Shown piece by piece: positions 4,321 through 39,887 of a stretch of 39,887 nucleotides of DNA. The notes beneath the pieces were generated by a model. That model was not told where the DNA came from and did not search any database. It was given only the letters and a program-made list of their open reading frames with translations. Every line of letters begins with the position of its first letter. Position 1 is the first letter of the stretch. The stretch comes from a virus: the IMG/VR virus record IMGVR_UViG_3300043410_000920, positions 1 through 39,887 of that record; one strand, written 5' to 3'. Both the position numbers and the translations under genes were made by a program.

Positions 4321-4508
4321 GAGCGCCGGATGTCTGGAGCGCGGACCAACTAAGCCGCTGGGATGTCAGCACGGGTTTGCCAGATGGCCGTCACGTTTGT
4401 GCCCGTCCTATGGCTTACCCAGGATTTCGCGTAATCCATCGCCTTCGCACAGCCTGGTTCGTGTTTATTGGCCGCTATGACGCACTGCGCTGGGAGGGAC
4501 AGCCATGA
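4317..4508 (+). CDS. Hypothetical protein, 63 residues
   Basis: A 63-residue gene held by four-base overlaps at both ends. It contains a moderately hydrophobic stretch near the C-terminus (TAWFVFIGRYDALRW), but this is too short and polar for a clear membrane helix. No family is recognised. Confidence 0.55.
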   Translation: MRAPDVWSADQLSRWDVSTGLPDGRHVCARPMAYPGFRVIHRLRTAWFVFIGRYDALRWEGQP

Positions 4509-4687
4509 CCGGCGCCGAACTCCGCACCGCCCAGCGGGCGATGAACCTGACCAATGCCCAGCTGCGCCGCAAACTCGGCGTGGCTGAGACGACACTATGC
4601 AACTGGAAGTCGGGCCGCATCGATGTGCCCACATCCGTCGCACTGGCAATGAAGTATCTGCAAGAAAAACACGAACAGGGGAAATAA
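4505..4687 (+). CDS. Small XRE-type helix-turn-helix protein
   Basis: A 60-residue protein that is almost entirely one HTH: ELRTAQRAMNLTNAQLRRKL, then GVAETTLCNWKSGRIDVP, then an AMKYL helix. This matches the Cro/CI-like fold, in which the second helix reads DNA. It is Cro-sized and has no C-terminal oligomerisation or peptidase domain. It lies directly before the primase, whose start overlaps its stop by one base (TAATG). It is the only clear transcription factor in the rightward early genes and may bind one of the repeat clusters in this window. Confidence 0.75.
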   Translation: MTGAELRTAQRAMNLTNAQLRRKLGVAETTLCNWKSGRIDVPTSVALAMKYLQEKHEQGK

Positions 4688-6762
4688 TGGACAACGTGGA
4701 CGCCTTCCGCGACGCAATACGCGCCGCCGGATTTGAGCCGCCGTCTGAAGTCGTGCCGGGCAAGTGGCATCGGTTCAGCGTGAACGGGAAACGCACCGAC
4801 ACCGCCGGCTATTGCATGATGTTCCATGACATGCGCGGCGGCATCTTCGGTGACTGGCGCCAAGGCGTCGAACACACTTGGCAGTCCGAGGCCCGCGAGG
4901 AACTGACGGTCGAGGAACGCAAGGCGCATCGCAAGGCGATCGAGCAAGCCAAGCGCGAACGCGAGGCCGAACAGGCCAGGGTGCGGCAGGAAGCCCGCGA
5001 CAAAGCCCAGCGCATCTGGGACAGCTCGGAACCGGCCAACGATAACCACCCCTACCTGGTCCGCAAGGGCGTGAAAGCCTACGGCCTGAAGCAGTCCCGC
5101 GACGCGCTGGTGGTGCCCATCAAGGACATGACCGGCACCATCCACAGCCTGCAGTTCATCGACGGCGAGGGGAATAAGCGCTTCCTGACCGGTGGGGCCA
5201 TCGCTGGCCACTTCGCTGGCATCGGCAAGTTGAACGGCGTCATGCACGTGGCCGAGGGCTATGCGACGGCGGCCAGCATCCACCAGGCAACCGGCGACGC
5301 TGTGGCCATCGCCTTCAATGCCGGCAACCTGGAGCCTGTGGCCAAGGCCGTGCGCGAACGGTTCCCCGATGTCGAAATCCGCATCTGCGCCGACAACGAC
5401 GTCAACACGCCGGGCAACCCCGGCATGACCAAGGCACACAAAGCCGCCCAGGCCGTCCAGGCCACGGTGATCGCACCCGAAGCAGGGGACTTCAACGACA
5501 TGATGCTGGAACATGGCATCGAGGCCGTGGCCAACGTCGTCACGGCGCCCGTGGTGGTGGCCAACGACAACAAGGCCCTGGTGGACTACTACGCCCCGCT
5601 GCCGATCTGCGACGGTCGCGGCAAGCCCATGGACATCATCGAGAACCTGGCCGAGATCACGCGCCGCCTTGGCGTCACCATCCGCTACAACGTCATCAAG
5701 AAAGAAGACGAAATCCTCATTCCCGGCAAGGCGTTCAGCGTCGACAACGCCGCCAACGCCAGCCTCGCGTGGCTGCGCAGCGAGTGCGTGCGCTTCCGCT
5801 ACCCGACCGGCGCGCTGGGCGACTACGTGACCTACCTGGCCGACCAGAACCTTCACAACCCCGTCATCAACTGGATACAGTCCAAACCCTGGGACGGCGT
5901 CAGCCGGCTGCAGGACCTCTACGACACGATCGAGGCCGAAGACCAGGCACTCAAGGAGGTGCTGATCAAGCGCTGGATGATCAGCGCGGTGGCTGCGGCA
6001 TTCCGTCACGACGGCGTCAGCGCCCATGGCGTGCTGACCTTGCAGGGCAGCCAGTACCTCGGCAAGACCAAGTGGTTCAAGTCGCTGGTGCCCGAGGACC
6101 TGGGCCTGCTCAAGGACGGCATGCTGCTGCAGCCGCACGACAAGGACAGCGTCAAGCAGGTCTGCAGCTTCTGGCTGGTCGAACTGGGTGAACTGGACGC
6201 GACCTTCCGCAAGTCCGACATCGCCGCGCTGAAGTCCTTCATCACGAACCAGTCCGACGTCCTGCGTCGACCCTTCGCCCGCAAGGAAAGCCACTTTGCC
6301 CGGCGCACGGTGTTCTTCGCATCGGTCAACCCGAAGCAATTTCTGCACGACGCGACCGGAAACCGGCGCTACTGGACGATCGAGGCCAAGTGGATTGACC
6401 ACAGCCACAAACTAAACATGCAGCAAATCTGGGCTGAAGTGTTGTTTTTATACAACAGCGGCGAGCCCTATTATTTGCAGCCCGACGAGATGGACAAGCT
6501 GAACAAGTCGAACGAGGAATACACGGTCATCGACCCGGTGCAGGAGCGACTGGAAAGCCGCCTCGATTGGAAGTCACCACCCATGACCTGGACCTGGAGA
6601 TCGGCCACCGACATCCTGATCGAGGTCGGCATGGACAAGCCAACCGTGCCCGACGTCAACAAAGCGGCGACCTTCATCCGGCAGAAAAACGGCGACCAGG
6701 GAAAGCGCACGTATAAGGGGCGCGTGCTGCTGGCACCGCCCAAAATCACGAATTCCTGGTGA
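4687..6762 (+). CDS. Toprim primase / VapE-family helicase
   Basis: A 691-residue replication protein. The N-terminus resembles phage primase-associated domains (GFEPPSEVVPGKWHRF). A Toprim domain follows, with Glu190 in AEGYATAAS and the D236-N-D238 motif. The C-terminal half is a virulence-associated-E type P-loop ATPase: a Walker A-like GSQYLGKT at 454-461, then FWLVELGELD, and conserved ANVNPKQF-like and GNRRYW motifs. It probably primes and unwinds DNA at the phage origin. No DNA polymerase is present, so host polymerase is likely used. The start at 4687 is chosen because it overlaps the HTH stop. Confidence 0.85.
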   Translation: MDNVDAFRDAIRAAGFEPPSEVVPGKWHRFSVNGKRTDTAGYCMMFHDMRGGIFGDWRQGVEHTWQSEAREELTVEERKAHRKAIEQAKREREAEQARVRQEARDKAQRIWDSSEPANDNHPYLVRKGVKAYGLKQSRDALVVPIKDMTGTIHSLQFIDGEGNKRFLTGGAIAGHFAGIGKLNGVMHVAEGYATAASIHQATGDAVAIAFNAGNLEPVAKAVRERFPDVEIRICADNDVNTPGNPGMTKAHKAAQAVQATVIAPEAGDFNDMMLEHGIEAVANVVTAPVVVANDNKALVDYYAPLPICDGRGKPMDIIENLAEITRRLGVTIRYNVIKKEDEILIPGKAFSVDNAANASLAWLRSECVRFRYPTGALGDYVTYLADQNLHNPVINWIQSKPWDGVSRLQDLYDTIEAEDQALKEVLIKRWMISAVAAAFRHDGVSAHGVLTLQGSQYLGKTKWFKSLVPEDLGLLKDGMLLQPHDKDSVKQVCSFWLVELGELDATFRKSDIAALKSFITNQSDVLRRPFARKESHFARRTVFFASVNPKQFLHDATGNRRYWTIEAKWIDHSHKLNMQQIWAEVLFLYNSGEPYYLQPDEMDKLNKSNEEYTVIDPVQERLESRLDWKSPPMTWTWRSATDILIEVGMDKPTVPDVNKAATFIRQKNGDQGKRTYKGRVLLAPPKITNSW

Positions 6763-6967
6763 GGTGTACATGGGCGTCATGGGGGTGTCATGCCCGAAAC
6801 CCGCATGAACACTGGCTTTATGACACCATGTACACCATGTACACCTATATACACATATATGAGAAAAAGAGAGGAAACAGGGGGCGAGCGCGTGCGAGGC
6901 ACGTATAGGAAAACAGCGTCATGGGCGTCATGGTGTACATGGCGTCATGCGAGGGGATAATCGGACC
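6763..6967. promoter_or_regulatory. Repeat-rich control region, possible origin
   Basis: This 205-base gap holds no gene but has ordered repeats. The 11-mer GGTGTACATGG occurs at 6763-6773 and 6932-6942, and its reverse complement at 6826-6836 and 6835-6845; each contains the palindrome TGTACA. A second unit, GGCGTCATGG, occurs at 6773-6782 and 6924-6933, with one-mismatch copies at 6915-6924 and 6941-6950. GGTGTCAT (6784-6791) faces ATGACACC (6820-6827). An A/T-rich tract (about 6845-6875) lies in the middle. Repeats flanking an A/T-rich core beside a primase gene suggest a replication origin; an operator set for late genes is the alternative. Confidence 0.6.
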
Positions 6968-7576
6968 ATGATGAACTTCACCGTCAACGTCGACTTGGAC
7001 AAGATGGCTGGCATGCTGGATGCGTTCAGCGCCAACCAGGCCCCCTTCGCCATCGCCAAAGCCCTGACGATGACGGCCAAGGATGTGCAGGCAGCGGTGC
7101 AGTCCGACATGCCCAAGCGCTTCATCCTGCGACGCCAGTGGATTGTGCAAGGCATCCGCATCACCGCCGCCCGTAAGACCGACCTGACCGCCACCGTCTA
7201 CAGCCGCGACGCATCGTTCATGGCGCGCCAGGAATTCGGCGGCATCAAGACACCGATGCAGGCTGGTGGCCGGAATGTCGCAGTGCCAATGCCTGCCGTG
7301 CGACGCACGAAGACGGGCATCATCGCCAAGGCAGACCTGCCCGCCAACCTCGGCGACCGGGCCTTCGTCATCAAGGCGACCGATGGCCGGCAGTACCTGG
7401 CCAAGCGCTTCAGCCGTGGCAAGCGCGCTGGCGTGCAGCTGCTCTACGAACTGAAGCCCAGCACGAAGGTGAACCCACGCCTCGGCCTGCATGAGATCGG
7501 CCAGAAGGTGGCGACCGTGTCGTTCGATAGGAACCTGCGGGCAGCCATCGAGTACGCAATGCGCACGGCCCGCTGA
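6968..7576 (+). CDS. Putative minor tail protein Z-like / tail completion protein
   Basis: A 202-residue protein. The pattern '[20 protein letters not shown]', a basic middle region and a C-terminal '[29 protein letters not shown]' helix resemble phage minor-tail-Z or neck/tail-completion proteins, but the match is only by eye. It is separated from the other virion genes by the methyltransferase and terminase genes. The start at 6968 has a purine-rich site (AGGGG at about 6952) upstream; ATG 6971 is also possible, and the ATG at 6947 lies inside the repeat region. Confidence 0.5.
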
Positions 7577-7751: not shown

Positions 7752-9047
7752 TTGACAACCAGCATTGCCAAAATGGCCGAGCGCATCGAACTGTGGCCGG
7801 TGGACCGACTGCAGCCATATGCAAAAAATGCCCGCACGCACAGCGACGAGCAAATCGACCAGATCGCAGCGTCTATTCAAGCCTTCGGGTTCACTAATCC
7901 GATCTTGGTGGACGGTACGGACGGCATAATCGCCGGTCATGGCCGGTTATTGGCCGCAAAAAAACTGAATTTCCAAGACGTGCCGGTCATCGTGCTGGAC
8001 CACCTGACCGAGGACCAGCGCCGCGCCTACATCATTGCCGACAACAAGCTGGCGCTCAATGCCGGATGGGACGATGCGTTGCTGGCCGAGGAACTGGCCC
8101 GCCTGCAGGATGATGGCTTCGATCTGGCGCTGACCGGCTTCAGCGACGAGGAACTGGCCGACCTGCTGCCCCGCATCGATGACGACGAGGGCGGCACCAG
8201 CGAGGCAGACGAAGTGCCGGCCGTCCCGGTGCATCCGGTCACGCGCCCTGGCGATGTGTGGGTGATGGGCCGCCACCGGCTCATGTGCGGCGACAGCCTG
8301 CAGCCCGACGCCACCGGCGTGCTGATGGGCAACGGCCAGGCTGACCTGGCGATCTGCGCCATGGCGTTCACCGACCCGCCGTGGAATATCGCCTACGGGG
8401 ACAACGGCCGCCGTAAGGGCCGCGCCATCCTGAACGATAACCAGGACGCCGACAGCTGGCAGGCGTTCGTCGCCGACTTCGCCGGTTCGCTGTCCATGGT
8501 GACGCGCCCCGGTGCCCCGGTCTATGTGGTGATGGGCGCCAACGAATGGCCCACGGTCGACGGTAGCCTGCGCGAGGCCGGGTTTCACTGGTCCAGCACC
8601 ATCGTCTGGGTCAAGGACCAGTTCGTGCTGACGCGCAAGGACTACCACGCGCAGTATGAGCCGATCTGGTACGGGTGGAATGGCGGCGCCGCCCGCCTGC
8701 GTCCGGTCGAGGACCGCACCCAGTCCGACGTCTGGCACATCCCCCGCCCGAAGGTGTCCGAACTGCACCCGATGACGAAGCCGGTGCAGCTGATCGAGCG
8801 CGCGCTGGAAAACAGCAGCGACCCCGGCGCCGTGGTGGTCGACCTGTTCGGTGGCAGCGGGTCGACCCTGATCGCCTGCGAAAGCACCGGCCGGTCGGCG
8901 CGCCTCATGGAACTCGACCCCAAGTACTGCGACGTCATTGTCCAGCGCTGGCAGGAGTTCACCGGCAAGACGGCGACCCTCATGGGCACCGGTGAGCCGT
9001 TCGGGCGTCGCGCCTCCAACGACAATGCGGCAGCCGCCGTCGCCTGA
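7752..9047 (+). CDS. ParB-domain DNA methyltransferase fusion
   Basis: A 431-residue fusion. Residues about 10-110 are a ParB/Srx-like domain (RLQPYAKNARTHSDEQIDQI, then GFTNPILVDG and GHGRLLAAKKL). The rest is an N6-adenine or N4-cytosine methyltransferase of the type with motif IV first: DPPW at 208-211 and the SAM-binding DLFGGSGST at 364-372, with DEDP-like target regions not obvious. No restriction enzyme is nearby, so it is an orphan enzyme, likely protecting phage DNA or acting before packaging. I chose the TTG start at 7752, which has GGGGAAG six bases upstream; ATG 7773 is the alternative. The start codon lies in an operator-like palindrome. Confidence 0.85.
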   Translation: MTTSIAKMAERIELWPVDRLQPYAKNARTHSDEQIDQIAASIQAFGFTNPILVDGTDGIIAGHGRLLAAKKLNFQDVPVIVLDHLTEDQRRAYIIADNKLALNAGWDDALLAEELARLQDDGFDLALTGFSDEELADLLPRIDDDEGGTSEADEVPAVPVHPVTRPGDVWVMGRHRLMCGDSLQPDATGVLMGNGQADLAICAMAFTDPPWNIAYGDNGRRKGRAILNDNQDADSWQAFVADFAGSLSMVTRPGAPVYVVMGANEWPTVDGSLREAGFHWSSTIVWVKDQFVLTRKDYHAQYEPIWYGWNGGAARLRPVEDRTQSDVWHIPRPKVSELHPMTKPVQLIERALENSSDPGAVVVDLFGGSGSTLIACESTGRSARLMELDPKYCDVIVQRWQEFTGKTATLMGTGEPFGRRASNDNAAAAVA

Positions 9048-38646: not shown

Positions 38647-39096
38647 ATGGCATCAGTCAACAAGGTCATTCTGGTGGGCAACTGCGGGCGAGACCCGGAA
38701 GTGCGCTACATGCAAGACGGCAAAGCCGTGGCCAACGTCAGCATCGCAACGTCCACACGCCGCAAGGACAAGAACACCGGCGAGATCATCGAAGACACGC
38801 AGTGGCACCGCATCACGTTCTACGAACGCCTGGCCGAGATCGCCGGCGAGTACGTGAAGAAGGGCCGCCCGATCTACGTCGAGGGGCGTCTGAAGTACGG
38901 CACCTATACCGACAAGAACACCGGCATCGAGAAGAACACCTGCGAGATCATCGCCACCGAATTGCAGCTGCTGGGCGCGCGTGAAGACGGCGCAGCACCT
39001 CGCCAGTCTGCACCTGCAGCGGCACCTGCACAGCGTCCCGCACAAGCCCCACGCCAGTCCGCACCGGCTGACATGGACGACGACATTCCGTTCTGA
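38647..39096 (+). CDS. ssb: Single-stranded DNA-binding protein
   Basis: A complete 149-residue SSB. Residues 1-110 are the OB fold (VNKVILVGNCGRDPEVRYMQ, DTQWHRITFYERLAEIAGEY, KKGRPIYVEGRLKYGTYTD), then a Gln/Pro/Ala linker, then the acidic tip DMDDDIPF. It coats single-stranded DNA during phage replication. The last 60 residues are nearly the same as those at 2-184. Next gene starts 12 bases later. Confidence 0.95.
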   Translation: MASVNKVILVGNCGRDPEVRYMQDGKAVANVSIATSTRRKDKNTGEIIEDTQWHRITFYERLAEIAGEYVKKGRPIYVEGRLKYGTYTDKNTGIEKNTCEIIATELQLLGAREDGAAPRQSAPAAAPAQRPAQAPRQSAPADMDDDIPF

Positions 39097-39107
39097 TCGG
39101 GGGCGGT

Positions 39108-39578
39108 ATGACACGATGCTTTGACTGCAAAACGTGCGCCTTCCTTGCCTACCCGCAAGCCGGCGAGCCGTGCATTGATTGCGAACCAGGCAATGATCAT
39201 GGAACCCACTATCTGCCGAATACCGGCGCAGCCAGTCCTGGCGCGATCTACAAGCTGCCGGAAGGTGTGAAGCTGGAGGACCTGAAACCAGGCCCGCTTA
39301 CCGGCAGCATCGACGCCACGCTTTCCGAGCGTGGCAGCCGCTACGGCACATTCAAAAGCCACTCTGAGATCACAAAGAACATGTTTCGAATGTTCCAAGC
39401 CCACATGGGCGTGCAGAAGTTCGAAAGCATGGCGGCGTATCAGCAGGAAGCCCTGCACATGATCTTCCACAAGCTTGGCCGCATCGCCAACGGTGACCCG
39501 AACTATGCCGACAGCTGGGTCGACATCGCAGGCTACGCCAAGCTGGTGGCCGATGGCCTGGAAGGTGTCGAACGGTGA
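39108..39578 (+). CDS. DUF6378-like protein, diverged homologue of 196-666
   Basis: 156 residues, the same length as the left-end homologue. C7, C10, C22 and C25 are kept and Cys4 is extra, and the core (LTGSIDATLSERGSRYGTFK, NGDPNYADSWVDIAGYAKLV) is conserved. The N-terminal sequence and the segment after the first conserved block (about residues 85-115) are quite different. This looks like an allele from a related phage. Its stop overlaps the next start as GTGA. Confidence 0.75.
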   Translation: MTRCFDCKTCAFLAYPQAGEPCIDCEPGNDHGTHYLPNTGAASPGAIYKLPEGVKLEDLKPGPLTGSIDATLSERGSRYGTFKSHSEITKNMFRMFQAHMGVQKFESMAAYQQEALHMIFHKLGRIANGDPNYADSWVDIAGYAKLVADGLEGVER

Positions 39579-39887
39579 AAGAGAACGCCATCCAGCAACT
39601 TGTCCGCCTGGCGCTCTCTGAGGCCGGCGCCACCATGTTCCGCAACAACGTCGGGGCCACGCATACGCCTGACGGCCGGCTTATCCGGTACGGCGTCTGC
39701 AACCCCGGCGGCAGTGACTTGATCGGCTGGAAGTCGGTCGAGATCACGCCCGACATGGTGGGCAAGAAGGTGGCGGTTTTCACAGCGGTGGAAGTCAAAG
39801 GCCCACAAGGCCGACCCACCGCCGACCAGATGCACTTCCTGGCTACGGTCGCCCGTGCCGGCGGCCTGGCTGGCATCGCAAGATCAC
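39575..39887 (+). CDS. VRR-NUC domain nuclease, cut by the window end
   Basis: The first 104 codons of a VRR-NUC gene that is nearly identical to 923-1267. The start codon here is GTG (GTGAAAGAGAAC), overlapping the upstream stop, where the left copy uses ATG after an extra gene. The five visible base differences are silent, so both copies are under selection and functional. Confidence 0.85.
   Translation, partial: MKENAIQQLVRLALSEAGATMFRNNVGATHTPDGRLIRYGVCNPGGSDLIGWKSVEITPDMVGKKVAVFTAVEVKGPQGRPTADQMHFLATVARAGGLAGIARS

Follow-up and report, generated by a model that had tools for sequence, protein, structure and literature searches.

A proposed replication origin with divergent iterons, of the SaPI/PICI/P4-crr type, directly downstream of a VapE-family primase-helicase gene in a complete temperate phage

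The window analysed here is a whole virus record of 39,887 bases. It encodes a tyrosine integrase, an SSB, a DEAD-type helicase and an exonuclease VIII-like gene, together with terminase, portal, major head, tape measure and tail genes, including a central tail fibre. As an integrase is present along with terminase, portal, head and tail genes, the element is a tailed phage of the temperate type rather than a satellite. Positions 4687-6762 of the plus strand hold the gene of a 691-aa primase-helicase (Pfam PF13362 and PF05272), the proposed initiator, in which a Toprim domain (residues 186-278) is followed by a VapE-like helicase domain (398-613) and then by a predicted C-terminal winged helix. 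The start of this gene is overlapped by a small gene of the same strand (4505-4687) for a regulator-like HTH protein of 60 aa, with weak matches to PHROG regulators. Just upstream of the terminase genes, a gene at 7752-9047 encodes a ParB-like domain fused to an N6/N4 DNA methyltransferase. The ends of the record nearly repeat each other: positions 916-1235 correspond to 39568-39887 at 97.5%, positions 1-674 match 38913-39586 at 76%, and the end repeats (1-1235 and 38913-39887) contain two DUF6378 genes. These near-repeats may be a paralogous duplication; otherwise the genome is circularly permuted or a mixture of strains and its ends overlap imperfectly.

The stop codon of the helicase gene ends at 6762 and the repeats begin with the next base. 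A first-pass annotation, made from the sequence by itself, had described two repeat families of four copies each in this region, and all of these copies were confirmed. The 11-mer GGTGTACATGG occurs at 6763-6773 and 6932-6942 on the plus strand and at 6826-6836 and 6835-6845 on the minus strand, thus entirely within 6763-6942, and nowhere else in the record. GGCGTCATGG has exact matches at 6773-6782 and 6924-6933, and two further sites, 6915-6924 and 6941-6950, differ from it by one mismatch, all four being on the plus strand; the overlap between units that had been pointed out is also real. An 11-mer reached four copies in none of 1000 dinucleotide shuffles of the region, the shuffle maximum being two, and the density of a repeated 9-mer along the whole record peaks in the stretch 6763-6967. 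With 25 one-mismatch matches genome-wide against 6.5 expected, GGCGTCATGG by itself is unremarkable, and it is its clustering that is remarkable. The exact tandem motif CCATGTACACCATGTACACC was found in no other record among all the viral contigs scanned.

The division into two families, however, did not hold. Read in register, the repeats resolve into a single degenerate unit of 8-9 bp, GGYGT(A)CAT, which is present ten times in the order >>> <<< [A/T tract] >>>>. Iterons 1 (6763-6771, GGTGTACAT), 2 (6773-6780, GGCGTCAT) and 3 (6784-6791, GGTGTCAT) lie on the plus strand; a conserved spacer that is not an iteron, CCCGCATGAACACTGGCTTT (6800-6819, plus strand), separates them from the inverted iterons 4 (6820-6827, GGTGTCAT), 5 (6828-6836, GGTGTACAT) and 6 (6837-6845, GGTGTACAT) on the minus strand. 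The right array, again on the plus strand, consists of iterons 7 (6915-6922, AGCGTCAT), 8 (6924-6931, GGCGTCAT), 9 (6932-6940, GGTGTACAT) and 10 (6941-6948, GGCGTCAT). Because GGTGTCAT, present once in each orientation, is an intermediate form that links the two families, and because the units of a relative (lineage L096) are uniform, we consider the families to be variants of a single unit.

The repeats flank an A/T-rich tract, as had been noted, but they are not evenly placed about it, with six units on the left (three direct, three inverted) and four on the right. By nearest-neighbour energies, no other 30 bp of the record are as unstable as this tract at 6846-6875, which ranks first among 39,857 windows of that size and is a candidate DNA-unwinding element. 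It is followed by a G+C-rich stretch (6884-6914) that ends in a conserved CACGTATAGGAAAAC core, CGCGTATATGGAAAT in relatives. No terminator was found here. A GC-skew analysis, proposed as a check in the first-pass annotation, gave no switch at the repeat site, although skew counts for little in a phage of 40 kb.

In a family profile search the protein encoded upstream had a single clear PDB relative, 7PDS, described as 'similar to D. nodosus vapE' (E 3e-35, 8e-40), which we take to be SaPI1 Rep. A Foldseek search with the AlphaFold2 model of the primase-helicase (mean pLDDT 92) placed six 7PDS chains, labelled 'PriRep1 with dsDNA', at the top (E 4e-21, TM 0.68 on target), with the SaPI5 primase-helicase as a lower-ranked match. 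It is by homology to this PriRep1 alone that we class the protein as a Rep-type self-loading helicase. Its C-terminal domain (6535-6735, plus strand; about residues 617-683) is modelled as winged-helix-like in the order H-E-H-H-E-E, with block pLDDT mostly 87-96 and the winged-helix order of elements over the final 70 residues. A PDB fold search with this domain alone gave no significant match (best E 0.36), and many of the insignificant matches were winged-helix DNA-binding domains. The winged helix is probably the domain that reads the iterons. Lineages L096 and L111 are 85% identical in the helicase core and 46% identical in the C-terminal domain, and their iterons differ. Among the relatives as a whole, iteron similarity tracked the winged helix no better than it tracked the helicase (Mantel-type test of iteron against winged-helix similarity with the helicase core controlled for, partial r 0.07, p 0.066).

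The first-pass annotation had listed a lack of conserved repeats in related phages among the results that would speak against it; such repeats were found, with lineage-specific sequence, in the same place and in the same arrangement. Scanning viral and genome contigs yielded 159 VapE loci, to which annotated phage records added more, and clustering at 93% identity left 110 testable lineages. With thresholds that were set post hoc, 46 of the 110 carry a clustered short repeat just 3' of VapE, scored as a 6-mer repeated significantly (p <= 0.01, dinucleotide shuffles) within 260 bp after the stop codon; in the control, made up of the last 260 coding bp ahead of the stop, the figure was 2/110 at p <= 0.02. 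The repeated word varies by lineage (GTGTCA, AGGGAC, GGTGAC, GACCCC, CTACAC, CTGACAG, AGTGCA, AGGGTA, GTTCAC, TTGACAA and others). Nevertheless, a common frame recurs around these varying words: left direct units, a short spacer, inverted units, TATATA, a G+C-rich stretch, TATATrGAAA and right units. The arrays nearest the A/T-richest site are opposed in 21 of 23 scorable lineages (p = 7e-5), in a pass made without selecting for orientation. Moreover, in sets extended by eye, 32 of 46 iteron loci have their weakest 30 bp in the 260 bp that follow VapE, where about 1.1 would be expected; intergenic DNA is generally weaker than coding DNA, for which the VapE loci without repeats (9/52) are a partial control.

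In L096, whose protein is 56% identical, all ten units are GGTGTCA. The units of L005 (68% identical) finish in CAC rather than the CAT of the window; this holds for nearly every copy, whichever of the two spacing forms it has, and fits one protein reading every unit. The spacer CCCGCATGAACACTGGCTTT is nearly identical in L005 and L096 and similar in L111, and the block at 6884-6914 can be aligned in six relatives. Among 56 iteron loci, a set likewise extended by eye, an AAGTyrTTGAT-type spacer occupies the same position in 12 (0.3 in shuffles) and a TATA..RGAAAW motif occurs in 17 (2.1 in shuffles). In proteobacterial loci and in some of the Clostridial ones, the core itself, CACGTATAGGAAAA at 6900-6913 (CGCGTATATGGAAAT in relatives), adjoins the right array despite their differing iterons; it may serve to bind a host protein or mark where the primer starts.

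Dense repeats near VapE are also present in isolated phages, namely Alexa, LPPA36, PS3, phiSP15-1 and a Paenibacillus phage. The hosts of these isolates are Acinetobacter, Pseudomonas, Marinobacter, Staphylococcus and Paenibacillus, and the surveyed lineages are proteobacterial and Clostridial, so that the repeats co-occur with VapE across phyla. The association is not universal, since about half of the VapE relatives have no repeats right after the gene. These are mostly lytic groups (FoX, Mano, ep3, Persinger and PPpW-3) and Stenotrophomonas loci; phages of the Foxunavirus, Manovirus, Jilinvirus, Harrisonburgvirus and Hiroshimavirus types have no repeats at this place. Among the loci without repeats are L023, L024, L026-L030 and those of Stenotrophomonas, several of which have a terminator and then the next gene.

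What surrounds the repeats changes from lineage to lineage. Among 54 iteron loci, counted in a set extended by eye, 4 have a homologue of the window's HTH protein, 7 one of its downstream tail gene, 2 one of TerS and 3 one of TerL. Where the next gene was read, it was a tail gene, TerS, a VRR-NUC or SNF2-type helicase gene (in Clostridia) or unrelated. Even the N-terminal primase half varies, being Toprim in the window and L101 and Prim-Pol in L111. The constant partner of the repeats is the VapE helicase with its C-terminal tail, VapE being present in all iteron loci by selection. As judged from these comparisons, the repeats appear to be part of a replicon module that travels together with the VapE helicase.

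Several described systems resemble this arrangement. The crr of P4, an annotated cis-required region for replication, reads > <<< AT >> with the same script. As in the window, the repeats, here 8 bp long and of type I, run in both orientations and closely follow a primase-helicase gene; the P4 unit GGTGAACA is one base from the window unit GGTGTACA. Unlike the window, P4 has two crr repeat copies and a separate ori elsewhere. The window protein is a PF05272 VapE, whereas the P4 alpha helicase is generally placed in another helicase family.

The arrangement also resembles that of SaPIs and PICIs. In these elements the rep helicase gene is directly followed by an A/T-rich site with an iteron set on either side (PMC6092414, PMC7581432); PICI origins always have the two sets around an AT-rich region and support plasmid replication (PMC6092414), and the C-terminal domain of SaPI Rep recognises the iterons directly downstream of its own gene (PMC7581432). 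The window agrees with SaPI1, SaPIbov1, SaPI5 and EcCICFT073 in having its iteron sets (6763-6845 and 6915-6948) around 6846-6875 immediately 3' of the initiator gene, and its helicase is of the same VapE kind as the PriRep1 of 7PDS. It differs in being a complete temperate phage with integrase, terminase, portal, head and tail genes, in its fused Toprim primase where SaPIs have AEP-type primases (PMC7581432), and in its iteron sequence, with 8- and 9-bp forms. All SaPI/PICI origin features that lend themselves to comparison from sequence and model are present in the window, but the likeness concerns the type of origin only; a PICI as an element is a satellite without head and tail genes of its own, which the window is not.

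Two further systems share parts of the layout. Cch2 of SCCmec is a self-loading helicase that binds, through its C-terminal domain, repeats directly downstream of its gene, and these short direct repeats are its putative origin (PMC7581432). It belongs to the D5_N / SaPI5 Rep branch, unlike the window protein, its iterons are AAGTG within a 23-bp stretch, and its origin is putative in vivo. In the archaeal plasmid pRN1, too, an essential element closely follows the gene of a primase-helicase with a winged helix, orf904, and a small regulator gene, orf56, precedes orf904, as in the window; in contrast, its element is a stem-loop without iterons and its primase is of the AEP type (PMC4234260).

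According to these data we propose that 6763-6948 is the replication origin of this temperate tailed phage, of the SaPI/PICI/P4-crr type and initiated by the VapE-family primase-helicase encoded upstream, a reading to which we give a probability of about 0.86. The primase-helicase would bind the iterons, most likely via its C-terminal winged helix, and assemble on the two opposed arrays at 6820-6845 and 6915-6948, with the direct copies at 6763-6791 as a further binding array. The A/T tract between the opposed arrays (6846-6875) would then melt, two helicase hexamers would be loaded in diverging orientations, and the strands would be started by the Toprim primase fused to the helicase. It is from the divergent arrays around the weakest DNA that we infer two opposed helicase rings and a bidirectional start.

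The first-pass annotation had left the choice between an iteron origin, which fits these results, and a dense operator, which does not. As an operator cluster, the repeats would be the target of a phage regulator such as the 60-aa HTH protein, whose gene is in the same operon, and would control the transcript of the downstream tail gene. A promoter-like TGTACA-16-GATAAT at 6934-6961 does overlap iteron 9 just before the ATG of that gene at 6968, although it would yield a nearly leaderless transcript. The HTH homologue is found in just 4 of the 54 iteron loci, and the downstream gene varies among lineages. Furthermore, an operator does not account for the divergent layout or for the packing of ten copies into 190 bp about the least stable DNA of the genome. 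We see only a small chance that this is what the repeats are, and from the same comparisons the HTH protein is unlikely to be a general iteron binder. The promoter-like pair is built from iteron 9, and regulation of the late transcript might be a further role of the right array.

The repeats could also be a packaging site (pac or cos) for the terminase encoded 2.1 kb downstream. Short repeats can be part of cosB and pac sites, and terminase genes lie downstream both in the window and in L129. However, no more than 2 to 3 of the 54 loci have a TerS or TerL of the window type close to the repeats, the repeats following VapE rather than the packaging genes, and we hold this to be the slimmest of the possibilities considered. 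Since the neighbouring genes vary while VapE is constant, both a packaging site and an HTH operator are removed as general explanations. A pRN1-like origin driven by structure, in which the inverted iterons form a large stem-loop recognised by shape and not by sequence, would still be an origin. pRN1 needs a stem-loop 3' of orf904, similar ones have been noted in phages (PMC4234260), and the single strand of the window folds better than its shuffles (z -2.95; 1 of 200 equals it). Nonetheless, the stem consists of iterons, so this z-score follows from their inverted order; the units recur in direct orientation across the tract, and recognition by shape would not need the copies to have a common lineage-specific sequence. 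It is therefore very improbable that structure is what is recognised, a little less so than for a packaging site.

The proposed iteron origin is of a known kind, found here in a complete phage, and what goes beyond the known is its spread among complete phages. A paper of 2018 considered the layout exclusive to PICIs, with no other known replicon having it. No description of such an origin in VapE phages was found in the literature covered, which includes few subscription papers. The first-pass remark that no described origin is known to have this pair of repeats is literally correct, but the layout itself is described for SaPIs and PICIs and is present in P4 crr. In a wider reading, which we regard as evenly balanced between true and false, the PICI/SaPI origin would not mark satellites in particular but be one branch of an old class of VapE-helicase replicons present in complete phages and satellites of several phyla. 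The iteron 'word' would be replaced wholesale in each lineage within a fixed frame (spacer, inverted array, A/T tract, GCG/TATATrGAAA core and direct array), the primase half would be swapped freely, and the C-terminal winged helix would set compatibility groups. If the proposed origin is correctly identified, complete temperate phages of many hosts have a replicon class in common with satellites, and the two could exchange, interfere or exclude each other at the origin. Many genomes annotated 'VapE / DNA primase, hypothetical' would gain a located origin, and the lineages would be a natural series of iteron-domain pairs for learning how such helicases read DNA.

Two further features were observed among the relatives. 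A second conserved element, AGTGGTCACTAACAT, lies about 20-60 bp past the right array in L096, L111, L129 and L008. In the L015-L022 clade, iteron-like CTACCCCC words extend into the 3' coding end of VapE, giving a C-terminus that ends in ...DTPTVPRSTPDF.
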